Of a DNA stretch of 52,422 bases, positions 12,505 to 50,500 are shown one piece after another. A program made the position numbers and the translations under genes. The DNA comes from Alphaproteobacteria bacterium (GTDB lineage Bacteria > Pseudomonadota > Alphaproteobacteria > Rs-D84): NCBI GenBank assembly GCA_009783855.1, contig WRCO01000005.1:1-52422 (forward strand), read 5' to 3'. The stretch's first letter is position 1. Each line of letters starts with the position of its first letter. The notes under the pieces were generated by a model, which was not told the origin of the DNA, made no database searches, and worked only from the letters and a program-made list of their open reading frames with translations.

Positions 12505-12641
12505 AATGTTGAATTTTGAATTATGAATGTTGAATTGGAAAAGTCGAGAACGAACGTTCTTGCCGACACTGTATATAAAACCGGCGGAAAAGTCAAGAAA
12601 AATCCACCAGATTCAATATTCATAATTCAAAATTCAACATT
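12505..12641. repeat. Long inverted pair of iterated GAATTTTGAATT-like words flanking the rho promoter
   Basis: The segment 12505-12535 is the reverse complement of 12611-12641 with 30 of 31 bases matching. Each arm is built of degenerate iterations of the word ATTCAAAATTCA. The 75-bp interior holds the leftward rho promoter, so one arm falls in the rho 5' leader. Confidence 0.85.
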
Positions 12642-16076: not shown

Positions 16077-16564
16077 CCGCGTTTCGATTTGAAAAATTCT
16101 TTTAACATCGCCGCCGATTCGTTTTCGAATTCCGGCATCTGTTCAACGGAAGGTTTCCAAAGGTGCTTTGCGGTTTCATATACGCGCGCGCCGTGCATAA
16201 TTCCGCCGCCTTTTTCATCGCAAGCCGCGAAAAATATTTTTTTTATCCGCGCGAACGAAATCGCGGTCGCGCACATCGCGCACGGTTCAAGCGTTACATA
16301 GATTTCGCAACCATCCAAAAATTTGGCGCAAAGTTTCTTTGACGCGGCGCGCAAAGCCACGATTTCCGCATGCATCGTCGCATCGCGGTTTTTTTGAACC
16401 CGGTTGCATCCGCGGGCGATTATCCGCCCGCCTTGCGCAATCACCGCGCCGATTGGAACGTCGTCGTGCGTCGATGCTTTATGCGCCAGGGCCATGGCTT
16501 GCGCCATGAAGTCGGCGGCGGTGACCGGTGACCGGTGGTTCGTAATTTGATTTTTGGCTTTCAT
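16073..16564 (-). CDS. tadA: tRNA(adenine-34) deaminase
   Basis: TadA deaminates A34 to inosine in the anticodon of tRNA-Arg(ACG). The 163-residue protein has the zinc ligands HAE (in MHAEIVAL) and PCAMC, with the catalytic glutamate in HAE. I prefer the ATG at 16564 over the upstream one at 16591, which would overlap the divergent rsmD start. The true start could also be at 16507, because the first 19 codons (NQITNHRSPVTA) are encoded by a short iterated repeat that resembles intergenic copies elsewhere in the window. The gene diverges from rsmD by 17 bases. Confidence 0.9.
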   Translation of the reverse strand: MKAKNQITNHRSPVTAADFMAQAMALAHKASTHDDVPIGAVIAQGGRIIARGCNRVQKNRDATMHAEIVALRAASKKLCAKFLDGCEIYVTLEPCAMCATAISFARIKKIFFAACDEKGGGIMHGARVYETAKHLWKPSVEQMPEFENESAAMLKEFFKSKRG

Positions 16565-16581
16565 AGTGATAATCTTAATCC

Positions 16582-17205
16582 ATGAATTCACATTTGCAAA
16601 TTATTTCGGGGAAATTCAAGGGACGGAAATTGTCTATTCCGCCGAACGCCCGCCCGACACAAAATCGCGCCCGAATCGCATTATTTAACATGCTTGCCGG
16701 TATTTTACGAACCGCCAATCACCAGCCACCGGCCACCATTTGGGACGCCTTTGCGGGAAGCGGCGCGTTTGGGATTGAATTCTTATCAAGAAACTGGGCC
16801 GCGCATGCTATATTCACGGATAACGACGCCGGCGCGGTGAAAGCAATCGAACGCAATCTTGCCGGATTCGGTGGGAATACATTCACAATCCGGAAAACGA
16901 ACGCGACCGCCGCCGCCCGTGAATTTGCGCCCGCCGCGGATGTCGTATTCGTCGATGCGCCGTACGATGCGCCGGACACGGGGGAAATTTTTATCGCCGA
17001 ATTCGCCGCACACGCGCGGCCCGGCGCGATGGTTGCGTGGGAGATGGAAGACGGTATTCGGTATTCGGATACGGCATTCGAAGGCTTTGAAGTCTTAAAA
17101 GATAAAAAATATGGACGCGCACGATTCTTGATAATGCAAAAAATAATTCCGGATACCGTATCCGAATACCGACGGAGTAAAAATGCTTCAACCGAAACTT
17201 TATAA
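16582..17205 (+). CDS. rsmD: 16S rRNA (guanine-966-N2) methyltransferase RsmD
   Basis: RsmD methylates G966 of 16S rRNA. The 207-residue protein has the family start IISGKFKGRKLSIP, RPTQNRARIALFNML, the SAM loop DAFAGSGAFGIE (about residues 54-65), and VFVDAPYDAP in place of the usual DPPY motif. Two segments are encoded by repeat-like DNA: RTANHQPPATI near residues 43-53, and the C-terminal GIRYSDTAF / PDTVSEYRR stretches, which contain a perfect 16-bp inverted pair (17059-17074 with 17156-17171). The 3' end overlaps the next gene by 23 bases. Confidence 0.9.
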   Translation: MNSHLQIISGKFKGRKLSIPPNARPTQNRARIALFNMLAGILRTANHQPPATIWDAFAGSGAFGIEFLSRNWAAHAIFTDNDAGAVKAIERNLAGFGGNTFTIRKTNATAAAREFAPAADVVFVDAPYDAPDTGEIFIAEFAAHARPGAMVAWEMEDGIRYSDTAFEGFEVLKDKKYGRARFLIMQKIIPDTVSEYRRSKNASTETL

Positions 17206-19908: not shown

Positions 19909-20016
19909 GCTGACAACTAACAGCTGACAAGTAACAACTGAAAGGATACGAGCAACGAATAAAAATAATTGCGAGCGAAGCGAACGCAACAATTGTTAGA
20001 TGTCAGTTGTTAGTTG
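19909..20016. repeat. Inverted pair of iterated CAACTAACAACTG-like words between lptC and lptB
   Basis: Words in 19909-19939 (CTGACAACTAACAGCTGACA and following) recur inverted at 19990-20016 (CAATTGTTAGATGTCAGTTG). The interior carries the word GCGAGCGAAGCGAACGC. The lptB leader includes the right arm. Confidence 0.7.
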
Positions 20017-20771: not shown

Positions 20772-22034
20772 ATGTTTGACATCGTAAAAATCCACGCGCG
20801 GCAAGTTCTTGACAGCCGCGGAAACCCCACAGTCGAAGCGGACGTAACATTATCCGGCGGCGCCGCCGGCCGCGCGATTGTGCCGTCGGGCGCGTCGACC
20901 GGAACGTTCGAAGCGCTTGAGATGCGCGACGGCGGCAAAGACTTTGGCGGCAAGGGTGTCACGAAGGCAATCGCGAACGTCAATGAAATCATCGCGCCCG
21001 CCGTCACGGGAATGAACGCGCGGGACCAATTGGCGATTGATAACAAGATGACAGAGCTTGACGGGACGCCGAACAAATCGCGTCTTGGCGCGAATGCGAT
21101 TCTGGCGGTATCGCTTGCGGCCGCGCACGCGGCGGCGAATGCAAGAAATGTTCCGCTGTATGCGCACATACGCTCTCTGTTGCCGTATCCGGATACCGAA
21201 TACCGGCTGCCGATACCCATGATTAACATTATCAACGGCGGCGCGCACGCGGACAATAAACTTGACGCCCAAGAATTTATGATTATGCCCACAGGCGCCG
21301 CGTCCGAATCCGAAGCGATAAAAATGGGCGCCGAGGTTTTTCACGCCCTTAAATCCGTATTAATAAAAGCGGGACAGCCGACAAACGTCGGCGACGAAGG
21401 CGGATTCGCACCGAATTTCGATAATTCAAGGCAAGCGTTGGATGTTATAATTCAGGCCATAAAAAACGCAGGGTATCGGGCGGGCAAGGATGTTGCAATC
21501 GCGCTTGACCCCGCCGCATCGGAATTTTACAAAAACGACGCCTATGAATTCGAAGGACAAAAATTATCGTCCGAACAGATGGTCGGCTTTTACGAAAAAC
21601 TTGCCGCCGAATATCCAATCGTTTCAATCGAAGACGGATTGGCCGAAGAAGACTGGGCCGGGTGGAAGCTTTTGACCGACCGGATGGGAGGCAGGATTAA
21701 AATCATCGGCGACGATTTATTCGCGACAAATCCGGAAAGATTACAGCGCGGAATCGACGAAAAAACCACTAACGCGATTCTTGTCAAAGTTAATCAAATC
21801 GGAACGCTTTCCGAAACCCTTGCCGTGATAAAAATGGCGCAGGACGCCGGATTCGAAGTTGTGGTTTCGCACCGGTCGGGCGAGACCGAGGACACAACGA
21901 TTGCGGACCTTGCGGTCGCAACGAACGTCGGACTTATAAAAACCGGCTCTATGTCGCGCAGCGACCGCACGGCGAAATATAACCGATTGCTGCGCATCGA
22001 AGAACAATTGGGCGTGAGCGCGAAATATGCTTGA
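20772..22034 (+). CDS. eno: Enolase
   Basis: Enolase converts 2-phosphoglycerate to phosphoenolpyruvate. The 420-residue protein has the substrate loop ([16 protein letters not shown]), the metal and acid-base residues in [11 protein letters not shown] and DDLFATN, and the catalytic lysine region in [14 protein letters not shown], followed by [17 protein letters not shown]. Near residues 136-148, where other enolases read roughly GGxNAHVLPVPMMN, this one has [17 protein letters not shown]. The DNA there (21181-21222) is the same CCGGATACCGAATACCGG repeat word as at the end of rsmD, so a repeat seems to have replaced or extended a surface loop. Ribosome site GGAG. Confidence 0.96.
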
Positions 22035-23270: not shown

Positions 23271-23732
23271 ATGGCTGGAAGCGTAAACAAAGTGTGTCTG
23301 CTTGGCAATTTGGGTCAAGACCCGGTTGTGCGCAGCGGGCAAAACGGCAAAATCGTGAATTTTTCGTTGGCTACATCCGAAACCTGGAAGGATAAAAATA
23401 CGGGCGAACGGCGCGAACAGACCGAATGGCATCGCGTTGTGATATTCAACCCCAACCTTGCCGAAGTCGCGGAACGCTTCCTGCAAAAAGGTTCAAAGGT
23501 TTATATCGAAGGAACGCTTCGCACGCGCAAATGGCAAAATCAACAGGGTCAGGATGTCTGGACGACCGAAGTTGTTTTGCAAAACATGGGCGGCGCCCAG
23601 ATGATATTGCTTGGCGGAACGAAATCCGACGGCGGCGGCGGATACGGCGGACCGGCACCCGTCGAGGGCGGCGCGCCCGCACCGCGCGAAGAAATTTCTA
23701 TTGAACAAATCGGCGACGACATTCCATTTTAA
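23271..23732 (+). CDS. ssb: Single-stranded DNA-binding protein
   Basis: SSB coats single-stranded DNA in replication and repair. The 153-residue protein has the OB fold (about 4-110; [46 protein letters not shown]) and a short Gly/Pro linker. It ends in the acidic tip DDIPF, which binds partner proteins such as exonuclease I and PriA. The ribosome site AAAGGAAAG precedes the ATG, and a terminator follows, so the gene is monocistronic. Confidence 0.97.
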
Positions 23733-23752
23733 TGTGATTCCGCGCAAATTAT

Positions 23753-23794
23753 AAAACCCGCAAAGGCAATACCGATGCGGGTTTTGTGTTTTTT
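23753..23794 (+). terminator. Intrinsic terminator of ssb
   Basis: AAAACCCGC (23753-23761) pairs with GCGGGTTTT (23777-23785), followed by GTGTTTTTT. Confidence 0.8.
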
Positions 23795-23805
23795 GAAACT
23801 ATTTT

Positions 23806-26109
23806 CTATCTCCATGCCGGGGGAATTTCGATGGGTGTCCTGCTGATTTCTACGCCATGGTCGTCATAGATAATGTTGAAAATAGTGGTGGGCGGAAAAT
23901 CTTCTATGTTGCTTGAATTCTGGTACGTCCTCATGTTACTGCCGCCAAGCGACCATTTTTGATAAAGGAACTGCCTTTTACTGTCGATTTGTTCTTGGGT
24001 GTCCCCTGGAAGGACGGGATTATCAGGATTTCTTAAAGTCCGCGCCGATTGGGTTGTAATGTTGGGGCAATTCGCGAACGTCCTGTTGAACGCGCCGTTG
24101 AAGCCGTTTGCGTTGTTGACGGCGATGGGGATGCCGTGAATCCTGTCGAACAGTCCGTCGCCTATGCTGACCAGACTGCTGTTGTCTGCAAATGTCTCTT
24201 CAAATATACCTGCGCGCGGCTGGCCGGATATTCCGGAGAACAGGGCCCCGGGGACGCTGGTTATATTGGTATTTTGGAATGTGCCGGCAAACATCCAATC
24301 GGCCGTGGGACCAATGATGCTGGAAAATAAGCCCGACGGGATGCTTGTTATATTGGTGTCTCGGAATGTTTCACGAAACATGTCTCTGTTTGGCGGACCG
24401 GTGATGCCGCTGAACAAACCTGACGGGATGCTTGTTATATTTGTACCCATGAATGTTCCCATGAACATTCTGTCGCCCGCCGGGCCGGTGATTCCAGAGA
24501 ATAATCCCGTCGGGATGCTTGTTATATTAGTGCCCCAAAATGTTCGGAAAAACATTTCATATTGCGGTGCGCCGACGATTCCGTCGAACAGGCCCGACGG
24601 TATACTGCTCAGATTAGTGTCATAAAATGTTGCGCTGAACATACCTACGGCCGGCGGACCGCTTATTCCGGAAAACAGTCCGGCGGGTATGCTTGTCAGA
24701 CTGCTGTCGGAGAATGTGCCGTTGAACATATGTCGCGCCGGCGGACCGTTTATTCCGGAAAACAGTCCCGACGGCACGGTTAATAAAGGCGTCTCGTTGA
24801 ATGTATACAAAAACATTCTTTCCGCCGGCGGACCGTTTATCCCGGAAAACAGTCCTCCGGGTATGCTTGTTATACTCGTGCGACGGAATGTATCTTCGAA
24901 CATGCCTTCGGCCGGCGGACCGCTTATCCCGGAGAACAGGGTCACTGGAACCGGGCCGGTTAAACCAGGGTTGGTCCGGAATGTGCCAAGAAACATCCAG
25001 TCCGCCGGCGCGCCACTTATCCCGGAAAACAGACCGCCCGGGACGCTTGTTAGATTGGTGCGAAAGAATGTATGGGAAAACATACCTTCGGCCGGCGGGC
25101 CTTGGATTCCGGAAAACAGAGTCTCCGGGACGCTTGTTATATTGGTGTCGGCAAACGTCTCGTCGAACATCCAGGGCGCCGGCGCGCCGTTAATCCCATA
25201 GAACAGATTTCCCGGAATGCTTGTTATATTAGTGTTTCGGAATGTGCTGGCAAACAGCCACTCTGTCGGCGCTCCCTGTATGCGGGCAAACAGGTCTGCC
25301 GGAATGCTTGTTATATTGGTGTTTCGGAATGCACTTTCAAACATGTTGTCTACGGGTGCGCCCGTCATACTCTTGAAAAAAGTATTCGGGATGTATGTAA
25401 TGGGACTGTTTTCGAACAAACTGTTAAACCGGGGCGTATTCGCAAAACCGCCGCCGAAACGTATTGGAAATATTGCCGAGGGGTCGCCGCCGGTTTCGAC
25501 TATCCTGCGGCGCGTGCACAGCGTGGAATTCCAATGCCCCCCAAGGCCGATGGCTGCGGTGCCCCACGACCCTTCGTCTGAAGCATAACTTGTCGCGACG
25601 CCGCCAAATCCGATAACATAAGTTCCCGCCTGTTCATAAACGTGCGAATAGGTTACATTATTCGTGTTGTTCTTCAGATGCCGTACAATCAACCCATCGC
25701 CCCAGTCGATGATAAAAGCCCCGTATGCGGAAATTTCTATGTTGGCCTGAAACCCGGCGGGCACGGTCACCCTTATCCAGAATAGCGGTTCAAATCTTAT
25801 CCGGCTCAACGCCTCCAACACGCCAACAGTGTCTATCGCCTGTGTCGTGGCCAATTCATGTTCGCAATATTCCGATGTGGGCCTGTCGTTTAATACCTCG
25901 TTCGCCCTGTCTATCGCGCACAGCATGTATTTCACATTCGCCGCACGCGTCGGTTCGGCCCCGTCCGGCATCGGCAGAGACAGGTGCAGTCCCTCTAACT
26001 GTTTATTTATCGCCATATGTATGAATTCGACATTAGCAATCTGACCGGTGGCATCCGCGCCGCCGGCCAAAAAGATTACGGAAAATAAAGCGATGAATAT
26101 TCTTTTCAT
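23806..26109 (-). CDS. Secreted BspA-like protein with 15 tandem repeats of about 32 residues
   Basis: The 767-residue protein has a signal peptide (about 1-20). An N-terminal region near residues 125-175 (IDWGDG ... YSHVYEQAGTY) resembles the PKD-like domain seen in DUF285/BspA surface proteins. From about residue 220 to 670 come 15 repeats of the form NTNITSIPSGLFSGIxGPPAxxMFxxTF, a leucine-rich-like DUF285 unit. A short unique C-terminus follows. Such proteins bind host or bacterial surfaces in gut anaerobes and trichomonads. The repeats make the DNA repetitive at about 96 bp. It lies 14 bases after the collagen-like gene. Confidence 0.85.
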   Translation of the reverse strand: MKRIFIALFSVIFLAGGADATGQIANVEFIHMAINKQLEGLHLSLPMPDGAEPTRAANVKYMLCAIDRANEVLNDRPTSEYCEHELATTQAIDTVGVLEALSRIRFEPLFWIRVTVPAGFQANIEISAYGAFIIDWGDGLIVRHLKNNTNNVTYSHVYEQAGTYVIGFGGVATSYASDEGSWGTAAIGLGGHWNSTLCTRRRIVETGGDPSAIFPIRFGGGFANTPRFNSLFENSPITYIPNTFFKSMTGAPVDNMFESAFRNTNITSIPADLFARIQGAPTEWLFASTFRNTNITSIPGNLFYGINGAPAPWMFDETFADTNITSVPETLFSGIQGPPAEGMFSHTFFRTNLTSVPGGLFSGISGAPADWMFLGTFRTNPGLTGPVPVTLFSGISGPPAEGMFEDTFRRTSITSIPGGLFSGINGPPAERMFLYTFNETPLLTVPSGLFSGINGPPARHMFNGTFSDSSLTSIPAGLFSGISGPPAVGMFSATFYDTNLSSIPSGLFDGIVGAPQYEMFFRTFWGTNITSIPTGLFSGITGPAGDRMFMGTFMGTNITSIPSGLFSGITGPPNRDMFRETFRDTNITSIPSGLFSSIIGPTADWMFAGTFQNTNITSVPGALFSGISGQPRAGIFEETFADNSSLVSIGDGLFDRIHGIPIAVNNANGFNGAFNRTFANCPNITTQSARTLRNPDNPVLPGDTQEQIDSKRQFLYQKWSLGGSNMRTYQNSSNIEDFPPTTIFNIIYDDHGVEISRTPIEIPPAWR

Positions 26110-26123
26110 ATCACTCCAAAGCC

Positions 26124-27692
26124 TTACGGTAATGGCGGTGTCGAAACATGCAGGACGCCTCCAAAGTGATACGCCGTGGTGAAATTGCCAAGGTTTGACC
26201 CGGCGCCCGCGTTCAGCGGCGGCCTGTTCCTTATAAAGTCAAGTTCCGTGGTGTCCGCCTGGGTCCAATTCGGTTGTATGGACGGCCCCTGTGGCCCTTC
26301 GGGTCCCATTAAATCTTCAAGCAAGACTATGCTCTGCCATTCGGAATCCGAATCGGCGTACCGCCATTCTATGCTCTCGTCACCTGCTCGAATTTCTACC
26401 TCTCTGCCGTCTTCTCCGACAGACCCGACCACACACGGTCCCCATCCGGGTGTCCCGCCTTCGGTTATCCAGGCCTGGAAACCAGACAGCTCGTTATATT
26501 CGCAGGGTTGAATTCTTGCAGATTCACCCGCCGCACCTTGTTCGCCCGGCTCACCCGGTTCGCCCGACTCTCCCTGAGGACCTTGCGGGCCTTGCGGACC
26601 TGTTATGTCTGCAATAGAAATTATAGGATATGACTCTGTCCCTCCGGCATACCGCCATTCTATATAGTATTCGCTTGTGTGGATTTCCACCTCTCTGCCG
26701 TCAAGCCCTGCCGGACCTGCGGGCCCTTCGGGGCCTTGTGGACCTTCCGTGCCATCAGCACCCGCCGGACCTGCCGGGCCGTCGGCGCCATCTTCCCCGC
26801 GAACCGCTGTCAAACAGGGGCCCCATCCGGGCGTGCCGCCTTCGCTTATCCAAATCTGGACGCCTGACTGTCCTTCATGGGTACATACATTGGTTCTTGC
26901 CGCTTCGCCTGCGTCACCTTGTGGGCCAGCGGGACCTTCCGGACCTGCCGGGCCTTGTGGGCCATCCGCGCCTGCTGGGCCTGCCGGACCCGCTGGACCT
27001 GCCGGGCCATCTGCGCCTGCTGGACCTGCCGGGCCCGCTGGACCTGCCGGGCCTTCGGGACCTTGCGGCCCCTCTGCGCCTGCTGGGCCTGCCGGGCCTT
27101 CGGGACCTATCGGACCCTGTGGGCCATCAGCGCCTGCTGGGCCTGCCGGACCCGCCGGACCTTGTGAGCCTTCCCCGCCATCAGCCCCCGCCGGACCTGC
27201 CGGACCTTGTGGACCTTCCGCACCTGCTGGCCCCGCCGGGCCTGTCGGACCTGTCGGACCTATTGGACCCGCCGGGCCTGCCGGACCCGCTGGACCTGCC
27301 GGACCTGCCGAGCCTGCCGGGCCTTGCACACAGTCTGTATCAGTTATGCATACACGACTGCCGTCACCCTGCGCACGCAGATAATCATAAACCGAAGAAC
27401 GGCGGGCCTCTGGCGATATCGCCCGCGACGGTGGCGCCACAGACCGCGGTGCCGATGTCGCGGCGCGCGCCGCACCCGGCTGAACCGCAGAGGAACGAAC
27501 CGCCGATTGCGCGCCGGCGGACGCCGCGCGCGTCATCGCGGGGGACACCGTGTCGGATGGCGTTCGGGTTGCAGTGCCGGCCGGTACGCTTGCGCTGCCC
27601 ACGCGCATCGCTGCCATTGATGCGTCCGCGCTTTGCATGCCTGCGAACACAGACATACAGACCATTATCTTGAAAAAAGTTCCGCTTTTCAT
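26124..27692 (-). CDS. Secreted collagen-like protein
   Basis: The 522-residue protein has a signal peptide (about 1-24), an Ala/Arg/Ser-rich stretch, and a long Gly-X-Y collagen-like region (about 125-250, mainly GPAGPAG and GPQGPAG). Two copies of a 24-residue module with [12 protein letters not shown] or [12 protein letters not shown] follow, interleaved with more Gly-X-Y and two EVEI-type modules ([17 protein letters not shown] and [17 protein letters not shown]). The C-terminus is short and unique. Triple-helical stalks like this project adhesins from the cell. I chose the ATG at 27692 for its GGGAGAGAG site. It follows the two beta-barrel genes in the same direction. Confidence 0.88.
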
Positions 27693-27720
27693 TCTCTCTC
27701 CCTTTCTTATTTGCTGTCCA

Positions 27721-28737
27721 TCAGAATGCGTGCACCAATCCAAGGCTTATGGAATGGTTCATGACCCAACCAATATTGTTGGTGAAAGTCTGCACCTCTC
27801 CGGCGATGGGAACATATTGCGTATATTTCATTTCGCCCGCGTTGAACAAGCTGAACCTGTATCCGATGTCAAGGAACAGTTCTCCCGTAACACGGGTCCT
27901 ATACCCGGCCATAATCGACGGCATCACCGACAAGTTTACATTATGCTGTTTGGTATCGGGAAAGCCTTCGACCCAGACGCGCGGCACCGCAAATCCGATC
28001 CCGGCGCCGGCATAAAGCCATCCCCAATCCCACGCGTCGGTATTGTACACAGCGCTTGCCAAAATAAACGGCGCATTAAGCCCAAGGTTGTAACAATCGC
28101 CTTGGTCGCAATTCCTGTAATTGTATTCAAGCAGGTATCCGACTTCCACTTCGGCCGACCAGTTTGGGTTCAATATATGTCCGACGAAACCGGATACGCC
28201 CATGTGGTGCGCGCCGCTGTGGCTTATGGTGTCGCAAGTGCTGTACCCGCCGACTATTTCACAATCAAGCCCCATGTCATGACGCTCTTTGAAGAACGCA
28301 AAATTCTGTGTAAAACGCATACCCATATACCAATTGAAAACCTGCGGCGGCCCCGGGTCAAAACGCGGTTCCAAGAAAACGGGCGGAGGTGGCGGCGGCG
28401 GCGCTTCGGGCACCGGCGGCGGCGGACACGGTTGTGCCGGCGGGCACGGCGGTGGTGGTGGTGGTGGTGGCGGCGGGCACGGCGGCGGCGGTGGTGGCGG
28501 CGGCGGAGGTGGCGGCGCCTGTTCCACAATCGTGACCGGGGTGACATTCACCACGCAATTTGGGCACGGCACAGTGCGTTCCCGAGCAACCGATATATTC
28601 TGGACGAAATTCGTGCTGTGCTGTGAATTTATTTGCGGCTGGCCAAGGTGGTTCACCCGGACAGACGCCGCCGCGGGCGTATCGAGAAACAAAAGCGCAC
28701 CCGGCACCCCAAGTATTAATTTAACGAATTTATTCAT
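27721..28737 (-). CDS. Outer-membrane beta-barrel protein with polyproline region, copy 2
   Basis: The 338-residue protein has a signal peptide (about 1-23), a short conserved segment with [18 protein letters not shown], and a polyproline run with cysteines (about 75-125). An OmpA-like beta-barrel of about 200 residues follows and ends in LGLVHAF, the terminal phenylalanine being the Bam recognition signal. It is a tandem paralogue of the protein at 28857, with matching barrels and N-termini. The ribosome site AGGAGTG lies 8 bases before the ATG and is identical in both copies. A polyproline rod between signal and barrel is unusual; it may cross the periplasm or the cell wall. Confidence 0.82.
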
Positions 28738-28856
28738 GCCATTCACTCCTGTGCTTAATAGGAACATTATACTATAAATCAAAACCCAATAAAAGTAAAA
28801 ATCGCATAACTGGATTAAAAATAGGTTTCGTTAAATCATTTTCGGAAAACTATTTT

Positions 28857-29993
28857 CTAAAACGCGTACACCAGTCCAAGGCTTATGGAATGATTCATCA
28901 CCCAACCGATTTTGTTGGAAAATGTTTCCATATTCCCGGCGACTTCGGCATTATGCCGCATTTCGTCGACGTTGAACAGGCCAAGCCTGTATCCGAAATC
29001 AAAAAACCATGCGTCTGAAATTCTGGTCCGGTATCCGGCCATAACAGACGGCATCAACGACAGGTTGGTGTTGGACCGCGTGCCGTCCGGAAAGTCTTTG
29101 ACCGAAAGCTCTGGCGCTGCGACCCCGATTCCGGCGCCAAAGTAAAGCCATCCCCAATCCCGCGCGTTGGTGTTGTATACCGCGCTTGCCACCGCAAACG
29201 GCGTCGCAAGCCCGATGGTATAGCAACCGCCATGACTGCAATTTCTGTGACTGTATTCAAACAGGTGTCCGATTTCCATCTCGACGGACCAGTTCGGGGT
29301 CAAAATGTGCCCGATAAAACCGGAAGCACCCAATTGATACCCGCCGGTGTGGTCTGTGGCGGAACATGTGGCACATCCGGTCCCCGCGTCATGACGCTCT
29401 TTGAAGAATGTGAAATTCTGAACAAAGCGCGCGCCGGCATACCAACGAAAATACGAACGCTCTCCGTCAAATTTTGGCTCCCTTGCAACCGACGGCGGTG
29501 GTGGCGGGCATGGTTTCGCTTTCGGGCATTTTGGCGCCGGTGAAGGCGGCGGGCAAACGGTCTGGGGCGGGCAATCGGGTACGGGCGGCGGTGGCGGGCA
29601 AACGGTCTGGGGCGGACAATCGGGTACAGGCGGAGGCGGAGGACACTGCGGCGCCGGCGGACATGGCGGAGGCGGCGGGCAGATTGTTTGCGGCGGACAG
29701 ACCGGCGGCGGCGGACACGGCGGTGCGGACGGACATGCCACCGGCTGTGGCGCGGGCGGCGAAGGCGGCGGCGGCGCCTGTTCTACAATCGTTACCGGAG
29801 TGACATTCACCACACAATCGGGACAAGGCGCCGCACGCTCTCGATTAATCGAAATACTCTTTACGAAATTTGTGCTGTGCTGTGAATTTATTTGCACCTG
29901 GCCGGGATCCACCCGGACAGAAGCCGTGGCGTGGACGCCTGAAACCAAAAGCATGCTTGACAAACCAAGCATTAATGCAATGAATCTTTTCAT
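28857..29993 (-). CDS. Outer-membrane beta-barrel protein with polyproline region, copy 1
   Basis: The 378-residue paralogue of the downstream gene has a signal peptide, [18 protein letters not shown], a longer Pro/Cys-rich region (about 75-165) of repeated CPPPPPVPDCPPQTV units, and a barrel ending in LGLVYAF. I used the ATG at 29993; the GTG three codons upstream lies too close to AGGAG. A good promoter (TTGTCT, 17 bases, TATAAT, reading leftward near 30011-30040) precedes it. The repeated CPPQTV units suggest recent expansion by slippage or unequal exchange. Confidence 0.82.
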   Translation of the reverse strand: MKRFIALMLGLSSMLLVSGVHATASVRVDPGQVQINSQHSTNFVKSISINRERAAPCPDCVVNVTPVTIVEQAPPPPSPPAPQPVACPSAPPCPPPPVCPPQTICPPPPPCPPAPQCPPPPPVPDCPPQTVCPPPPPVPDCPPQTVCPPPSPAPKCPKAKPCPPPPPSVAREPKFDGERSYFRWYAGARFVQNFTFFKERHDAGTGCATCSATDHTGGYQLGASGFIGHILTPNWSVEMEIGHLFEYSHRNCSHGGCYTIGLATPFAVASAVYNTNARDWGWLYFGAGIGVAAPELSVKDFPDGTRSNTNLSLMPSVMAGYRTRISDAWFFDFGYRLGLFNVDEMRHNAEVAGNMETFSNKIGWVMNHSISLGLVYAF

Positions 29994-30060
29994 ACCATTC
30001 ACTCCTGTACGATTATATACAGGAAATTATATTTTAAGACAAGGGGATAATCAGCAAACA

Positions 30061-30085
30061 AAAACCGGGCGGTCGCCCGGTTTTT
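30061..30085 (-). terminator. Intrinsic terminator of carD
   Basis: AAAACCGGGCG and CGCCCGGTTTTT form a long perfect stem directly after the carD stop codon. The A-run and T-run make it potentially bidirectional. Confidence 0.85.
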
Positions 30086-30647
30086 ATTTTTCTTCTTCGA
30101 CTTCGACTTCTTCCGGCCCGTCTTCTTCGGCCGCGTTAAGGTCGATTTCTTTCGGCACGCCAAGTATGTTTTCGATTTTATCAACCGCATCGTCAAGTTC
30201 GATTTTATGAAGCACCGCAAATTCCTGCGCCATGCGTTCAAGCGCGCGCATATAAAGCCCGCGGCCGGAAAAGGTCATGGTGTCGGACGCCGACCGGCGT
30301 TGCAAATCGCGGACGACTTCGGCCAATTTCATCGGGTCGCCGGAATTGATATTTTCTTCGTAAACCGCGGCGCGGCGTGCCCAGATAAGGCGTTTCGCAC
30401 CCGCGGCGCGTTTCGCGCTTTCGATGGCTTCGTCCATTTTTTTCGCGGTGACAAGCGGGCGAAGGCCGGATATTTCCGCACGGTCAAGCGGCACGCGCAA
30501 AGTCATGTTGTTCTGTTCGAAATTGATGACAATCATCTGTATTTTTTGTCCCGCGATTACCTGTTCTTCGACGCGCGCGACCTTTCCGACGCCCTGGGTC
30601 GGATATACGACGAACTGTCCGTTCTTGAACTCAAGTTTTTTTGGCAC
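30084..30647 (-). CDS. carD: CarD/CdnL-family RNA polymerase-binding regulator
   Basis: CarD proteins bind the beta subunit of RNA polymerase and stabilise open complexes, notably at rRNA promoters. The 187-residue protein has the N-terminal Tudor-like RNAP-interaction domain (FKNGQFVVYPTQGVGKVARVEE, LRVPLDRAEISGLRPLV). A helical C-terminal DNA-binding domain follows (WARRAAVYEENINSGDPMKLAEVVRDL), then a short acidic tail. I set the start at the GTG at 30647, 6 bases after AAAGGGG; a TTG two codons upstream is too close to that site. A TATAAT box precedes it. Confidence 0.93.
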   Translation of the reverse strand: MPKKLEFKNGQFVVYPTQGVGKVARVEEQVIAGQKIQMIVINFEQNNMTLRVPLDRAEISGLRPLVTAKKMDEAIESAKRAAGAKRLIWARRAAVYEENINSGDPMKLAEVVRDLQRRSASDTMTFSGRGLYMRALERMAQEFAVLHKIELDDAVDKIENILGVPKEIDLNAAEEDGPEEVEVEEEK

Positions 30648-30728
30648 GACCAACCCCTTTCGATTCGTCTCTCTCGATATTTCGGATTATATCATAAAAA
30701 GAGCGATTTTCAACTTTTCGGCTGATTT

Positions 30729-31196
30729 TTATTGTCCGAGTCCGGCGGGCGTAAACCGCCCCACGTTGTTTATAAGCTCTTGCAGCATATTAAGTTCGAT
30801 TTCCGCCGGTATCGGCGTCGAGCCGGCGGCGATTCGCGCGTCGGGCAAATCTTCATCGCGAAGGATTCGTGTTTTTGTGACCCTGCCGCCACTTGCCGCG
30901 CCGGAGGCGCCGGGCGAAGGCGGGTCTATCCATGCAAGCAAGACCGTGCGGTTATCCCATGTCAGCGGAAGCGGCCCGCGAAGATTTTCCGTCGCGCCGT
31001 AATATATCCAGACCAAGGGCCCGTGTACCGTTCTTGCCTGTGGGCTTCCGAATCGCTCTTCAAGGTCGGCGACCGTCCGAACCTTTGCAATCTGTTCTTC
31101 CAAATCGTGCGGAAAAACGTATCCGCGTTGCCGGGTTTGAAAAGTGCACGCGGCAAGCGCGGCGGCGGCGATAAAAATGACAAGTATGTTTTTCAT
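30729..31196 (-). CDS. BamE/SmpA-OmlA-like outer-membrane lipoprotein
   Basis: The 155-residue protein has a lipoprotein signal with lipobox LAAC (cysteine near residue 17). A SmpA/OmlA domain follows: GYVFPHDLEEQIAKVRTVADLEERFGSP then VWIYYGATE. BamE helps the BAM complex insert beta-barrel proteins. The C-terminal 60 residues are not typical of BamE and are Gly/Ala/Ser-rich. A TAGAAT box ends 7 bases before the ATG and no ribosome site is visible, so the mRNA may be leaderless. Confidence 0.78.
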   Translation of the reverse strand: MKNILVIFIAAAALAACTFQTRQRGYVFPHDLEEQIAKVRTVADLEERFGSPQARTVHGPLVWIYYGATENLRGPLPLTWDNRTVLLAWIDPPSPGASGAASGGRVTKTRILRDEDLPDARIAAGSTPIPAEIELNMLQELINNVGRFTPAGLGQ

Positions 31197-37639: not shown

Positions 37640-37738
37640 AATGTTCGTGGCTCGTGCCGATGGCTTGTGGTTCGTGGTTGGGATAAGATGCCCGCCATAA
37701 CAGACAACCACAAGCCACCAGCACAAGCCACGAACCAC
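37640..37738. repeat. Inverted pair of iterated GTGGCTTGTGGTTCGTGG-like words between envC and ctpA
   Basis: The left arm (37643-37680) and right arm (37705-37738) are imperfect reverse complements made of degenerate repeats of GTGGCTTGTGGTTCG. The 24-bp interior is unique. The same words occur at 16512, 16715, 18457 and 47506. Confidence 0.75.
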
Positions 37739-45093: not shown

Positions 45094-45759
45094 TTATTTG
45101 CTTGCCCAAAGGACTCCTTCGCGCTCTTGCACCGTCCAGCCGGCGCTGCGCATTGATGTTACGAATGCGGCGCGGCGACCGGGGCGTATTGTCGCGGATA
45201 TTCGCGGTCCCCATATGCTTGAAATCCTTACATCCAAATCGGACCATGCGCCGGCTTCGTTAAGGTCGCGGACAAGGTCCATCCAATTGCGAAGTCCGCC
45301 GGATGCGTTGAACACCACGTTCGTCCGCAATCCGCGGTCGTCTTGAATTTCAAGCCGGTTCGATATATTGTGTTCCGCCAAAAGCCGTGCGGACGCGGCG
45401 CGGTCAAGCGTGATTGTTATTGTCGCGGAATAAGCCGTCGCGGCCTGTCTTTCGTCCGCAATGGACATAGTTCCGACAAGGTTCAGTATATCCGAATCGC
45501 GCGTTTCCGCGGAAAGGCGTTCGATTTCGGGCCATGCGGCATACCGGACAAGCACGTTTTCAAACGCGGCGCGGCGTGCCTGGATATGCGCGGCGGTTCG
45601 CGCGGCGGACGCGGACGCGGCTTCGGTCTTTACCGATACCGTGTGCGACATGTTTGGCGATGCGTTTGCGGCAAAGCCGCAAACAAAGAGCACAGAGCAC
45701 AGAGCATAAAGCACAGATGCTTTTTTAATATCCGTAAAATATCTTTTTAATCTCAGCAT
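45094..45759 (-). CDS. DUF2066-like periplasmic protein
   Basis: The 221-residue protein has a signal peptide (about 14-33; ASVLYALCSVLFVCGFAANA). The mature region carries the DUF2066 features: a helical RAAFENVLVRYA segment, ADERQAATAYSATITITLDRAA, and a C-terminal beta domain. DUF2066 proteins are widespread in proteobacteria but their role is unknown. The gene ends 20 bases before the ATG of the downstream cysteine-rich protein gene, so they probably share a transcript. The signal peptide is encoded by an iterated AGAGCACAGAGCA-like word. Confidence 0.72.
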   Translation of the reverse strand: MLRLKRYFTDIKKASVLYALCSVLFVCGFAANASPNMSHTVSVKTEAASASAARTAAHIQARRAAFENVLVRYAAWPEIERLSAETRDSDILNLVGTMSIADERQAATAYSATITITLDRAASARLLAEHNISNRLEIQDDRGLRTNVVFNASGGLRNWMDLVRDLNEAGAWSDLDVRISSIWGPRISATIRPGRRAAFVTSMRSAGWTVQEREGVLWASK

Positions 45760-45778
45760 TTATCTGTGCTCTTTGCTC
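45680..45778. repeat. Inverted pair of iterated AGAGCACAGAGCA words spanning the DUF2066 signal peptide
   Basis: The words AAGAGCACAGAGCACAGAGC (45686-45705) and following recur inverted in CTGTGCTCTTTGCTCTA (45763-45779). The segment between encodes the first 12 codons of the DUF2066 gene. Confidence 0.7.
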
Positions 45779-45796
45779 TATTTTCGCGCGCAAAAA

Positions 45797-47227
45797 TTAA
45801 AACCTTGCCGCCAAGCCTATGCGTATTCCCATCGACCGGTACACGGAATCAATTTCGTTCTTGTCCTTGCATATCCAATTCGGGCAATCCGCGAACAATC
45901 CGGCGATACTGCTTGCTTCGGATGTCGGGTCGTTAAGCGCCGCTGTTTCGCTTCCATCGAAATTCTTGTTTATGTCGGCCCAATACCGCGCTTCCCAGAA
46001 CGCCCCGTTAAGCGAAAGCTTTGCTTCGGCGCCGCTTACCGAATAATGGTCAAGCGAGAATCCGAACGTAAGCATGATATTGTCCGAAACCGCAGTCATC
46101 CAATTCGCGCCAAGTCCGATATGAAACGCCGATCCGATTCCGGCGGAATCCCGTATCGGATTGCTTGTCGCCCAGTCTATGCGATACGGTTGATTTCCAA
46201 TCGCCGAATATCCCGGAAGCCCGATTTCAAGACGACCCGTCATAATATTGTTCGGATTAACTTCATATTCCAATTCAAGCGCGACAAAGGGCCCCGCCCA
46301 TTCGATTTTATAATCGTGGCTTGTCCCCGATTGGTTGTATGAATAATTGTTTCCGATGTATACGTTTCCGTTTACAAGCTGTCCCTCTTCCGTAATAATC
46401 GCCCAATTATCGCCGCCGGTATTTACCAATATGACGGGGATGCATTGAAGCTCCTGTGTTCCGGGAACGACAAAGCATGTGGTCGCGGACCCTTCCGTGG
46501 CAATCGACATCGCCATGCCTTTGTTGCGGTCCGTTTTAAGATTGTACGAAAGATGGCGCCATCCGATGCCGGGGTTTACGCGCACTCTGCCGAACTGGAA
46601 CTGGTCGGCAAGCGTGATGCCGACACTATACCCCAACATAGAACCGCCGGTCGAACGTCCGACCGAAAGCGCCTGCCCCACAAGGTACCCAAGAAATTCT
46701 TCCGTGTCCGGGTCGTACAGAAAGTCATACACGGTTCCGCCGTTGGTAACGTCGTCGTCAACCATTGTGGAGTTGCCCATCTGCGTCCCGTACCGAAGTC
46801 CCCCGTCAAGGCGAAGCATCACGTCGCCGGTGCGGAATCCGTACCGAATTCCGGCATCAAACACGTTCCACGTAATATTGTCATAATGAAGCTTTGACCC
46901 GATGGTCTTCATATCAAATCCCCACATCGCGTATTGATGCGACAATCCCGCGCTTAATGAAAAACCTTCTGCGGACGACGCCTGTTGTTGCGGCGGCATT
47001 ACTTGCTGTGGCCGCTGGTGCATGGTGTGGGTTTGCATACCCGGGTGCCGTTGCTGCGGCGCCGGAGACCATTGGTTATGCTGTGCCGTTCGCGTCATCG
47101 GCGACGCGCCCGTCGGAGTGTACCGGAATTGCGGACTGTGCGACGTTTGCCCGGTATAGAACGTTGCGGCGGATGCCGGCACAGCCAAAAGCAGTGCACA
47201 AGGCACCATTGTCAGGAACTTTTTCAT
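45797..47227 (-). CDS. Outer-membrane beta-barrel protein
   Basis: The 476-residue protein has a signal peptide (about 1-20), a Gln/His/Met/Pro-rich linker (about 25-85), and a large beta-barrel ending in IGLAARF. The terminal aromatic residue is the usual Bam signal. The barrel shows alternating strands with conserved aromatic girdles (GFSLSAGLSHQYAMWGFDM, GYSVGITLADQFQFGRVRV). It is probably a porin- or omptin-like protein; no omptin catalytic set is visible to me. Ribosome site TAGGAG and a TATAAT box upstream. Confidence 0.8.
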   Translation of the reverse strand: MKKFLTMVPCALLLAVPASAATFYTGQTSHSPQFRYTPTGASPMTRTAQHNQWSPAPQQRHPGMQTHTMHQRPQQVMPPQQQASSAEGFSLSAGLSHQYAMWGFDMKTIGSKLHYDNITWNVFDAGIRYGFRTGDVMLRLDGGLRYGTQMGNSTMVDDDVTNGGTVYDFLYDPDTEEFLGYLVGQALSVGRSTGGSMLGYSVGITLADQFQFGRVRVNPGIGWRHLSYNLKTDRNKGMAMSIATEGSATTCFVVPGTQELQCIPVILVNTGGDNWAIITEEGQLVNGNVYIGNNYSYNQSGTSHDYKIEWAGPFVALELEYEVNPNNIMTGRLEIGLPGYSAIGNQPYRIDWATSNPIRDSAGIGSAFHIGLGANWMTAVSDNIMLTFGFSLDHYSVSGAEAKLSLNGAFWEARYWADINKNFDGSETAALNDPTSEASSIAGLFADCPNWICKDKNEIDSVYRSMGIRIGLAARF

Positions 47228-47312: not shown

Positions 47313-47397
47313 GGGCATATGGCGGAATTGGTAGACGCGCAACGTTGAGGTCGTTGTGAAGAAATTCGTGGAGGTTCAAGTCCTCTTATGCCCACCA
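47313..47397 (+). tRNA. tRNA-Leu (anticodon GAG)
   Basis: An 85-nt tRNA with acceptor arms GGGCATA (47313-47319) and TATGCCC (47387-47393), discriminator A and encoded CCA (47395-47397). The D-arm holds AATTGGTAGAC. The anticodon stem-loop is CAACG TTGAGGT CGTTG with GAG in positions 34-36. The long variable arm (GTGAAGAAATTCGTG) is typical of leucine tRNAs. The T-arm is GGAGG TTCAAGT CCTCT. It reads CTC and CTT leucine codons. Confidence 0.96.
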
Positions 47398-47540
47398 CCC
47401 TTCGCCAAGGCTTCTGGTGGCTTCGCCGCCCGAAATGATAAGCAGTATAAGGCGAAGGAGTGCCACCCGTAGCTTTAGCATAGGGGTGCAGTGAAGACCC
47501 CACAACCACCGGCACCAACCACCAGCCACCATATATTTTC
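47398..47540. repeat. Repeat-rich region after tRNA-Leu
   Basis: The stretch holds CCTTCGCCAAGGCTTC (47400-47415), the reverse complement of a word encoded twice in the following gene (GCCTTGGCGAAGG). It also has AAGGCGAAGGAGTGCCACCC and, near 47506-47540, iterated CCACCAGCCACC words. No ORF is credible here. A promoter for the next gene is at 47544-47573 (TTGCCC, 18 bases, TTTAAT). Confidence 0.6.
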
Positions 47541-47586
47541 CCCTTGCCCTGCCCCGTTCAAATCTGCTTTAATTCTTTATAAGGAA

Positions 47587-50500
47587 ATGAAAAAAGCCAC
47601 TGCATTTTTCGCGATTGTTTTTGTCGCGTCCGGTCTTGCGCATGCAGACGTGTCGTCGCCTGCCGCCCGTAGCCTTGGCGAAGGGGGGCGCCCCGATGCG
47701 CTTGATTATGACGCAGCGCGCGCAGCCACGCGCGCGGCGCCCGCGGGCGCGGCCACGCAAAGCGCGCAAGCACAGCCAAGAGACCAACGCACCGCGCCAT
47801 CCGCGGCGCCCGTATCCGCGCCGACCGGCCGCGGAGGGGGGGTCGGCGAACGAACCGCCCCCGCCCAAGCGCCCCAGGCGGGACAGACCGCGCGCGCCAC
47901 AATCCAAGCGCCTGCCGCCCGAAGCCTTGGCGAAGGGGGGCGCACCATCGCGGCAAGAAGCGCCGTCGACCCATCTGTGCGCAGCACAGCCGAGACAGGC
48001 ATCCCACGCGCCGCCGCCACCCCCGTCGCACAGCCGCGCACCGCCGTACCCGCACCCGCGGCGCGAAGCGCAATTCCGCAAACGGCCGTTCGCGGCGCAA
48101 TGACGCCTGTACGCGGGACTGCGGTCCCCGGCGCCACCGCCGCCCGCACTGCGCGCGCCGCGCCCACGCGCACCGCCATCGCCCGGTCGGCGGCAACCGC
48201 CGACACAGGCGCAACCGTCGCCGGCGGCGGATACCGCGCGTGCCGCGATGCTTTCTTTCACTGTATGGACGAACTTTGCGCGAACAAGGACACTCAATTG
48301 AAACGCTGCGCGTGTTCGGCGCGCACGCGCGAATTCGACGGCATGCGAAGACAGCTTGACGAATTCAACGACCGGATTCAAGATTTTAACGCAAACCTTT
48401 TGACCGTCGCGATGGACCGCGAAGACGCCGAAGCGATAATGCGCGCGACCGAAGGCGAAGAAGCGTTCCACGGCATGCTTGATTTGTCCGAATCGGCGCA
48501 CCTGCTTAACAGCATTATGGAAAGCCTTCGCAATACCACGGAGAGTCAGGTGATTGAAAGGTCGCTTGCCGCGATAAATATTTCCATGGATTTCACCGAC
48601 CCGTTCGATTCGATTGACATGCGGGCGGGCGCGGACATGACTATGCTTGAGGGTGAGGCCCTTCACCGCGCCGCGCTTCCCGTATGCCGTGAAATCGCGG
48701 CCGAAGTCTGCGCGCCGGGCGACATTCCGATTGTGGAATCCGCGTACCAGATGGCGATTGAACAAGATTGCAACGCCGTGTCGCGGGCGTTCGCCGGGCT
48801 TTTCGAACGCGCGCGCGAAAGGGTTAACGAAGGCCACGCATTGCTTGACATCGCGCGTTTGCAGAATTTCCAAACCCGCAATGCGGACGATATTCTTACA
48901 TGCCGCCGGCGTATGATTACGATGCTTTCCGATGCGGCGGTGTGCGGAGCGGGGCTTGACCGGTGTCTTGACCCGACGGGGATATTCATCGACCCGGGAA
49001 CCGGTAATCCGATATTGACGGGAGAGCTTTTCCGACTTGGCTTCAGCGGCACGGTCACCCGTGGCGGCAATAGTGTAGTCGGCGCCGGCGTGGCGCGTCC
49101 CATCGTCGGTCAGACTTGGGCGCGCGCCAATACTCCGTTTGTTCAGTTTCTTCATTCCAAACGCAAATATATCGAACCGGCGATGGCCGGGTGCGAACAG
49201 ATTGCGGACCACGCGTGGATGATGTTCCTGGAAGACGCGATTCCCCAAATCCGTGTTCAACAGGGCCGCAAATTGGAAGACATGCGACAGGCGTGCACGG
49301 GCATCGTTGCCCAATGCATAAGCGGCACGGCGCAATCTTTCCAAGACTTTGACGCACGTTCGGTGTCGATTTTCGGCCTTGCCGCGGACCGTGCGGTAAA
49401 CGCGATATGCGCAGATGTTCAAACGGCCTGTACGGCGCTTATGGTAAGCCCGCATCAAGACAGCGGAAGCGGTCAAGCGGCGGGCGAAGGCTGGGCGGAT
49501 GGCATGACTATGATTGCGACGCGCCGGACATTCGACCAGATTATGCAGACATGCCGCCTTGTCGGCGAAAACTGCATCGTCCGGAATTGCAGCAATATAT
49601 CCGGAAAATTCGGATTGTGCATGACCCCGACCCAGCGCCAGCGCAGAAACATCATGAACCGTTCGCTTTGCTGGAGCGAGGTTTATCGTTGTGTTAACGA
49701 GGCAGGTCCCGCGACTCTTACGCTAATCATGGACTCTGAATTTTTCGCACCAATACCTTTGGGAAGCAGCGGCCGATATTCCAACTGTCAGAACGATGTC
49801 GGCCCGGATCAGAATCAGAGACCGCAACGTTGGAGCAACCGCGATGCTTGTCAGATAGCAGAGCACATCTGGGGCAATTGCGACAAGCGTCCCGATGTCG
49901 AAAGCAACAACCCTCTCATACTGCACACAAATGAATTTGAGAACACCCTTCTTGCCTGGATAAGGGCCAATACGGGAAGTGGTGAAGGCAGTAGTGACAG
50001 CTGTTACGGCTTTGAATGCCCGACTGGCACCGCGCTATCACGCCCGGATGACGACGATGCCCCCGAATGCGTATCTGGTGAAGACCTGACCAATGACGGT
50101 TGGTATTGTCCGGCGAACATAACCCAGAAACCTGACGATTGGCCCAGGCGCCGATTTAATGTTACGAACACAATAACCAATTGCTGTATCGGCGGGGCAT
50201 TGGACGGCTTTAATAATGACCCAAACAGCAATTGCTGCATTGAAGTTGACAGACAGAGACTTACGACACAGATATTGAGAGCCAACAACAATAGCCTGTT
50301 CTACTATAACGACGACGAACTACGAACCTCGATGGGTGCCCCCAATGCGAATCATCCCACAATATGCCTGCACGCCCAGGCAAGGCTTGTCGCCCATTTT
50401 GACAACGGATTCCTGTTCTGTGTGAACGGAAACCTTACCCAGGCTGGCAAAACCAACCACAACAATGATGACCGCGTTAATTGCGCTGGCCAACTTGTGT

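Follow-up and report, generated by a model that had tools for sequence, protein, structure and literature searches.

Heptanucleotide and palindromic repeats in other systems

Heptanucleotide simple-sequence repeats: The STRR of cyanobacteria belong to this class of repeats. Other members are the TAACTGA repeat of Beggiatoaceae, with one inverted case (PMC4679880), the GGACCGG repeat of Geobacter metallireducens, which occurs in genes as well as between them (PMC2700814), and the GGGNATC repeat of Xanthomonas and Nostoc, which is under-represented in coding regions (PMC4692102). The arrays described here resemble them in the 7-bp unit, the tandem arrangement, the dispersal over the genome, and the lack of a known mobile enzyme. 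In contrast, they comprise many words per genome, lie in open reading frames in about 65% of cases and in many housekeeping genes, form inverted pairs with fixed polarity, and differ between species in the word found at the same site.

Nostoc trnL intron: In the group I intron of Nostoc trnL, the P6b stem-loop consists of Class I (TDNGATT) or Class II (NNTGAGT) repeats (PMC4476775). The likeness lies in a stem of seven-nucleotide repeats that ensures pairing, and in alternative classes occupying one site in different lineages. P6b is a single locus in an intron RNA, whereas the present arrays are genome-wide and in protein-coding genes.

Rickettsia palindromic elements (RPE): As summarised in PMC10969869, these are units of about 150 bp encoding a conserved peptide. 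In both cases repeats are scattered, in frame, through protein genes that are unrelated, in an alphaproteobacterium with a reduced genome. The present arrays differ in having short heptamer arms on either side of native sequence, much of which they replace. A MITE has terminal inverted repeats around a repeated core, and no such core was found in the loops here.

Nematomorph mitochondrial genes: Coding palindromes without known function occur in these genes, and template switching has been proposed for them too (PMC6649704). Together with the template-switch hairpins of PMC8794818, they resemble the present pairs as inverted repeats within genes that are gained or lost between species. The nematomorph arms encode conserved regions, whereas the arms here are mostly in tolerant loops. 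Heptamer periodicity and words common to several loci are features of the present arrays, in contrast to the excerpts of PMC6649704 and PMC8794818, where neither appears.

Heptanucleotide repeats are an already known bacterial class, and the present arrays are best read as a variant of it and not as RPE, which they resemble in invading protein genes. No account of in-gene paired heptamer arrays was found in searches of an open-access library, a scope outside which most subscription journals fall, and the text of a paper on the reduced-genome order Rs-D84 and Ca. Enterousia does not contain the word 'repeat' (PMC12306168). The enolase neighbours and the genome size make this order the probable lineage of the source genome.

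Heptamer arrays in rsmD and eno

The window, that is, the whole stretch of 52,422 nt that was analysed, contains a heptamer pair in rsmD and a related single arm in eno. The features are as follows.

16582..17205, plus strand: rsmD, encoding the 16S rRNA m2G966 methyltransferase, with three heptamer arrays (open reading frame, Pfam PF03602, family alignment)
17046..17076, plus strand: 5' arm of the RsmD pair, word W (CGGTATT/CGGATA/CGGCATT), read as GIRYSDTAF in a variable loop
17150..17172, plus strand: 3' arm of the RsmD pair, complement of W, read as PDTVSEYRR in the C-terminal tail
17048..17176, plus strand: predicted hairpin whose loop is a native conserved RsmD segment (-40.8 kcal/mol, z -4.3)
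20772..22034, plus strand: eno, encoding enolase (open reading frame, PF00113/PF03952)
21181..21211, minus strand: single arm of W in eno, residues 138-147, read as PYPDTEYRL

The initial annotation had claimed a perfect 16-bp inverted repeat within rsmD, recurring in eno and read in frame in both genes, and these observations hold. The word CGGTATTCGGATACGG at 17059-17074 on the plus strand is perfectly complementary to 17156-17171, and the match reaches 17 bp when extended (17058-17074 and 17156-17172). In eno the word recurs on the minus strand at 21183-21198 in a 1-mismatch version, CGGTATCCGGATACGG. This version is part of a stretch of 31 nt (21181-21211) showing 90% complementarity to 17046-17076 of rsmD. 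The reading is in frame throughout, giving GIRYSDTAF and PDTVSEYRR in RsmD and PYPDTEYRL in enolase. At up to 3 mismatches, CGGTATTCGGATACGG has 5 matches in the window, where dinucleotide shuffles give an expectation of 0.81. At up to 2 mismatches it has 28 matches across the 901-kb assembly, while the reversed pattern has 0, and in sixty relatives 0-7 matches each, mostly close to their own control level, so the expanded W word is specific to the source genome. Its copies are strings of smaller units (CGGTATT, CGGATA, CGGCATT) and often form inverted pairs in which the CGG-type arm comes first.

The annotation had further proposed that the enolase copy falls where homologues have a different loop, and that alignment would reveal insertions exactly at the repeats. 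The enolase site does differ from that of homologues, as the loop sequence is dissimilar in twelve alphaproteobacterial relatives, where it is 1 residue shorter. The repeat is no clean insertion there, adding only 1 aa relative to orthologues. Equally long and similar sequence in orthologues without the repeat had been named as evidence against the proposal; half of this is found in enolase, where the length is nearly equal but the sequence is not similar. The corresponding loop in structure 1iyx, the enolase of Enterococcus hirae, is five residues shorter than in the source enolase. The predicted enolase structure (mean pLDDT 92.5) places the copy, residues 138-147, in a loop leading from helix 129-135 to strand 148-155, in agreement with the proposed loop position.

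In RsmD, a variable loop holds arm 1, with a length difference of about +2 aa, and the C-terminal tail that holds arm 2 is missing in most relatives. The third RsmD array, RTANHQPPAT, occupies another variable loop (loop 1), and other species have different heptamer arrays there: GCGACTA in G008, CCAGCCA in G012, and an AATCACG-type array in G006. The suggested resemblance to Rickettsia palindromic elements stands for a dispersed, partly palindromic repeat in frame in unrelated protein genes and falls for the element type. A unit of about 150 bp is lacking; each arm is an array of 16-35 nt made of 6-7-bp units, and the pair encloses native gene sequence. An Rfam scan of the window found one tRNA and nothing else.

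Other heptamer pairs occur in the window, one of which reaches from the divergent tadA gene into loop 1 of RsmD.

16517..16545, plus strand: 5' arm of this second pair, GGTGACC heptamers, at the 5' end (N-terminal extension) of the divergent tadA
16705..16738, plus strand: 3' arm of the second pair, CCAATCA, CCAGCCA and CCGGCCA, read as RTANHQPPAT in RsmD loop 1
12505..12641, plus strand: inverted pair of TTGAATG/TTGAATT heptamers (12505-12535 and 12611-12641)
19914..20016, plus strand: intergenic inverted pair of AACTAAC-type heptamers (19914-19937 and 19993-20016)
37643..37735, plus strand: inverted pair, GTGGCT/CGTGC-type, of uncertain coding status (37643-37672 and 37706-37735)
45682..45779, minus strand: AGAGCAC array forming the signal-peptide core VLYALCSVLFV (45682-45717); the partner arm is in the 5' UTR (45763-45779)

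Genome-wide class of period 7

Heptamer arrays form a genome-wide class in a family of uncultured gut Alphaproteobacteria with reduced genomes. Self-comparison at fixed lags was applied to 20 stretches (400 kb) plus the window, in total about half of the genome. Lag 7 gave 46 arrays in the 400 kb of the source genome, whereas lags 4-6 and 8-12 gave 0-3; the lag 7 and 14 signal was strong, lags 13 and 14 being harmonics of period 7. The word families are many and include GGCATAA, AGAGCAY, AACTRAC, GAGTTKA, TTGAATD, GGCACTG, GTGGCTY, and CGGTATT, among others. One word may be present at about 10-15 loci, and clusters reach 15 pairs per word family.

Array density per 100 kb is 35 in G001 and 25 in G008, against 0.6 in distant controls, and no arrays were found in any of the sampled genomes of genus g11 or in other families of the order. 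Density is also patchy within genera: per 100 kb, the wider sample gave 50 in G017 against 2.3 in G005, and 25 in G008 against 0 in G020. Most or all genomes are draft assemblies and all comparisons are between species, the closest array-bearing pairs compared having about 60-70% RsmD identity.

At a looser threshold, 86 arrays were counted in 452 kb. By a simple home-made gene caller, and in a sample with a coding fraction of about 0.86, 56 of the 86 (65%) lie wholly in open reading frames, 23 between genes and 7 at edges, in contrast to the mainly intergenic location expected of STRR-type repeats. Words with stops on both strands were inside open reading frames in 3 of 20 cases, against 53 of 66 for the others (Fisher p 2e-7), a rarity that is as expected if protein tolerance filters the arrays.

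Inverted pairs and their polarity

The sampled genomes contain 104 heptameric inverted pairs with spacers of 5-161 bp (median 44). The polarity of each word is nearly fixed, with 121 links among word-sharing pairs in the same and 4 in the opposite orientation (58 of 63 degrees of freedom), where word clusters were built by single linkage and an AT-rich cluster is the main one mixing orientations; a first-pass count had given 107 to 1. In 84 of the 104 pairs, G outnumbers C in the 5' arm. Identity between the arms of a pair exceeded that to the best other pair in 22 of 31 cases, by a measure biased by the definition of the arms and therefore given no weight. The loops are native promoters or conserved gene segments, mostly unrelated to one another, and no repeated core was found in them; only an operator-like TTGTCC...GGACAA motif and the word GCCGACGCCACA recur, each in a few loops. 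The operator-like palindrome (TTGTCC-N-GGACAA or a close variant) was seen in loops of several heptamer pairs from two genera, at L206:13951, 15630 and 16765, and at L178:2137.

MurG: Two loops flanking VVYTGLPVRKDF hold complementary arms in four species, with four different words: CGGTATT in the source genome (G000), GGATGAT in G008, GGCAAAA in G016, and GTAGACA in G003. Both arms have thus changed jointly, in the same place, to unrelated words. G001 has two arrays in MurG that are mutually non-complementary, and no comparable heptameric pair was found in the other relatives examined, among them G020, a congener of G008. The predicted hairpins have z values of -6.7, -7.5, -7.4, and -3.3 in the four pair-bearing species, against -1.4 (G020), 0.0 (G014), and 0.1 in pair-less controls; strong hairpins are predicted only where pairs exist. 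The many words, the strict polarity, and the differing words at the same sites were not visible to the initial annotation.

Host proteins and signal peptides

The array-carrying proteins include MurG, FtsY, RuvB, Era, MnmE, MnmG, PrmC, ObgE, MutL, KsgA, RlmE, and UvrA. Ten proteins, RsmD and enolase among them, were checked against Pfam, and the remaining ones are named from their sequences. RuvB and FtsY have clean insertions of 7 aa (21 bp) and 5 aa, respectively, relative to solved structures, and Era gains about 4 residues. On the other hand, arm 2 of MurG is a replacement (about 0 to +2 aa), as is the enolase copy. The 22 arrays with at least two relatives have a mean length of 9.2 aa and a mean net gain of 2.1 aa, and their identity to relatives is 0.19 inside the arrays against 0.57 in the flanks, figures that are blurred because relatives may have their own arrays at the same sites. 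From these alignments, the arrays appear largely to overwrite native sequence and not to lengthen the protein.

In about a dozen cases the hydrophobic core of a signal peptide is made by an array (for example MLYALCSM and LMPYALCL), and for several of these the 5' UTR holds the partner arm. Signal peptides can be built from simple DNA repeats. An N-terminus RYFTDIKKAS is common to several genes for secreted proteins or lipoproteins, which continue with a signal peptide encoded by heptamers, have a partner arm in their 5' UTR (window 45640-45830, minus strand; L171:1-130; L172:1850-2000; L175:3980-4120), and look as if the entire signal-peptide cassette was duplicated.

Search for candidate enzymes

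Candidate enzymes were sought in 40 family genomes that are 54-100% complete, a range in which single gene absences are not proof. SbcD was found in 0 of the 40, controls being detected in 13 of 14, and its absence across all 25 good genomes is strong evidence. The loss of SbcD is permissive at most, since it is family-wide and includes the array-free g11. The reverse transcriptase domain (RVT_1, PF00078) was not found in G000, array-rich G001, or G003, the genomes of G001 and G000 being 88 and 94% complete, and a reverse-transcriptase-driven origin was rejected on this absence. The Y1 transposase PF01797 was absent in G000-G006, with matches in just 4 of the 40 family genomes, and a RAYT/REP origin was rejected likewise. 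Loss of mismatch repair was set aside as MutS is present in most array-rich genomes, and loss of exonuclease VII as the enzyme is present in 39 of 40. A Y-family DNA polymerase was missing from 36 of the 40 genomes and present in four, which all belong to genus g11, where no arrays were found.

Origin of the arrays

With somewhat better than even confidence, template switching and slippage during replication are considered to spread the heptamer repeats and to pair them, with protein tolerance as a filter, and the repeats are not considered to be Rickettsia palindromic elements. Arrays would grow through 7-nt slippage, and a nascent strand may then fold back, copy one arm at the position of the other, and return to its template, by which a pair would be made or homogenised. 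Such fold-back copying would overwrite native sequence, often with little net change in length, and words may move between loci by similar short template jumps. Selection would remove only the copies that break the protein or add stops, so that the survivors gather in tolerant loops, C-terminal tails, and signal-peptide cores. The family-wide loss of the hairpin nuclease SbcCD (SbcD was not found) may permit array formation and would not suffice for it.

The hallmark of template switching, reverse-complement arms tens of bases apart with native sequence overwritten, is present here. The arm spacing, the overwriting, and the joint replacement of arms are the products expected of replication template switching. 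Template switching is documented in PMC8794818 as able to create and homogenise inverted arms or stems, and intrastrand switching is argued there to keep the 5' base, favouring G-C. Plain template switching alone does not set polarity, though polarity is nearly fixed per word, and it leaves the unit length of 7 and the spread of one word to about 10-15 loci unaccounted for. The clean insertions in RuvB (+7 aa) and FtsY (+5 aa) also count against it.

It is possible, though unlikely, that a dedicated or strongly biased cellular process in this family writes complementary heptamer arms, almost always of the same polarity, around short native segments and so keeps rewriting loops and signal peptides of essential proteins. 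If true, such an arm-writing process would amount to a new kind of parasite-like DNA, spreading without a transposase.

A mobile palindromic element of the RPE, MITE, or REP/BIME type, inserted by a transposase and with each pair as the terminal inverted repeats of one element, is distinctly unlikely. Dispersal in frame through unrelated genes, the fixed polarity, which fits terminal inverted repeats, and the clean insertions in RuvB and FtsY would all suit it. But the arms of a pair enclose native sequence, conserved gene or promoter, that bears no relation to the interior of other pairs, and much native sequence is overwritten and not displaced. Single arms also occur, as in eno, each genome has many unrelated words, and the genomes searched lacked the Y1 transposase (G000-G006) and RVT_1 (G000, G001, and G003).

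Ordinary heptanucleotide simple-sequence repeats, slipping independently at each site with inverted pairs as a by-product, would account for the strong lag 7 and 14 signal, and a report cited in PMC4679880 makes heptanucleotides the commonest long-unit class in most bacterial genomes. As independent slippage predicts neither frequent inverted pairs (104), nor the joint complementary replacement of words at the MurG loops, nor words common to many loci, this origin is quite improbable.

Selection for RNA structure, with the hairpins serving mRNA stability, translation control, or promoter insulation, is highly doubtful. Hairpins are missing from the same genes in relatives (G020, G014, g11), the MurG arrays of G001 are non-complementary, the affected genes are unrelated, and the tadA-rsmD pair spans divergent genes that probably have no common transcript. 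These points stand against the strong predicted hairpins (z down to -7.5), the covarying MurG arms, the arms that flank the start region of signal-peptide genes, and the promoter-like loops.

In another model, similar to interstitial telomeres, a polymerase adds heptamers to 3' ends at staggered nicks. Addition of W onto both recessed 3' ends of a break with 5' overhangs would give W, native sequence, and W' with fixed polarity, and would explain the G-richer 3'-extended strand (84 of 104) and the native single-copy loops. No reverse transcriptase domain was found in array-rich G001 or in G000 at the completeness stated above, many words would require many templates, and overwriting of native sequence is not predicted, which leaves this model very improbable. 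Chance or assembly artefact is scarcely credible: most or all genomes are fragmented drafts of uncultured bacteria, but there are 28 matches against 0 in the control, lag 7 is specific in several independent genomes, and reading frames are intact in essential genes.

The arrays are a natural experiment: unrelated seven-base words have repeatedly rewritten the same loops of proteins, with the hairpin arms changing together. They make directly testable the origin of long complementary stems, the bacterial preference for 7-nt units, and how far essential proteins tolerate random sequence. They also carry a warning that covarying mRNA stems need not imply RNA function.

Other repeats in the window

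Positions 23600-31000 contain a run of repeat proteins. Collagen-like Gly-X-Y repeats with a 9-bp unit lie at about 26690-27330, a repeat of 87 bp is found at 24180-25331, and paralogous segments rich in glycine occur at 27725-29903. At the contig end, 51581-52253, there are three to four tandem copies of a cysteine-containing repeat of roughly 200 bp. A tRNA-Leu(GAG) in 47313-47940 is followed by dispersed palindromic words CCCTTCGCCAAGGCTTC (47395, 47662, and 47914), and a related word is found downstream of rsmD in the stretch L143.
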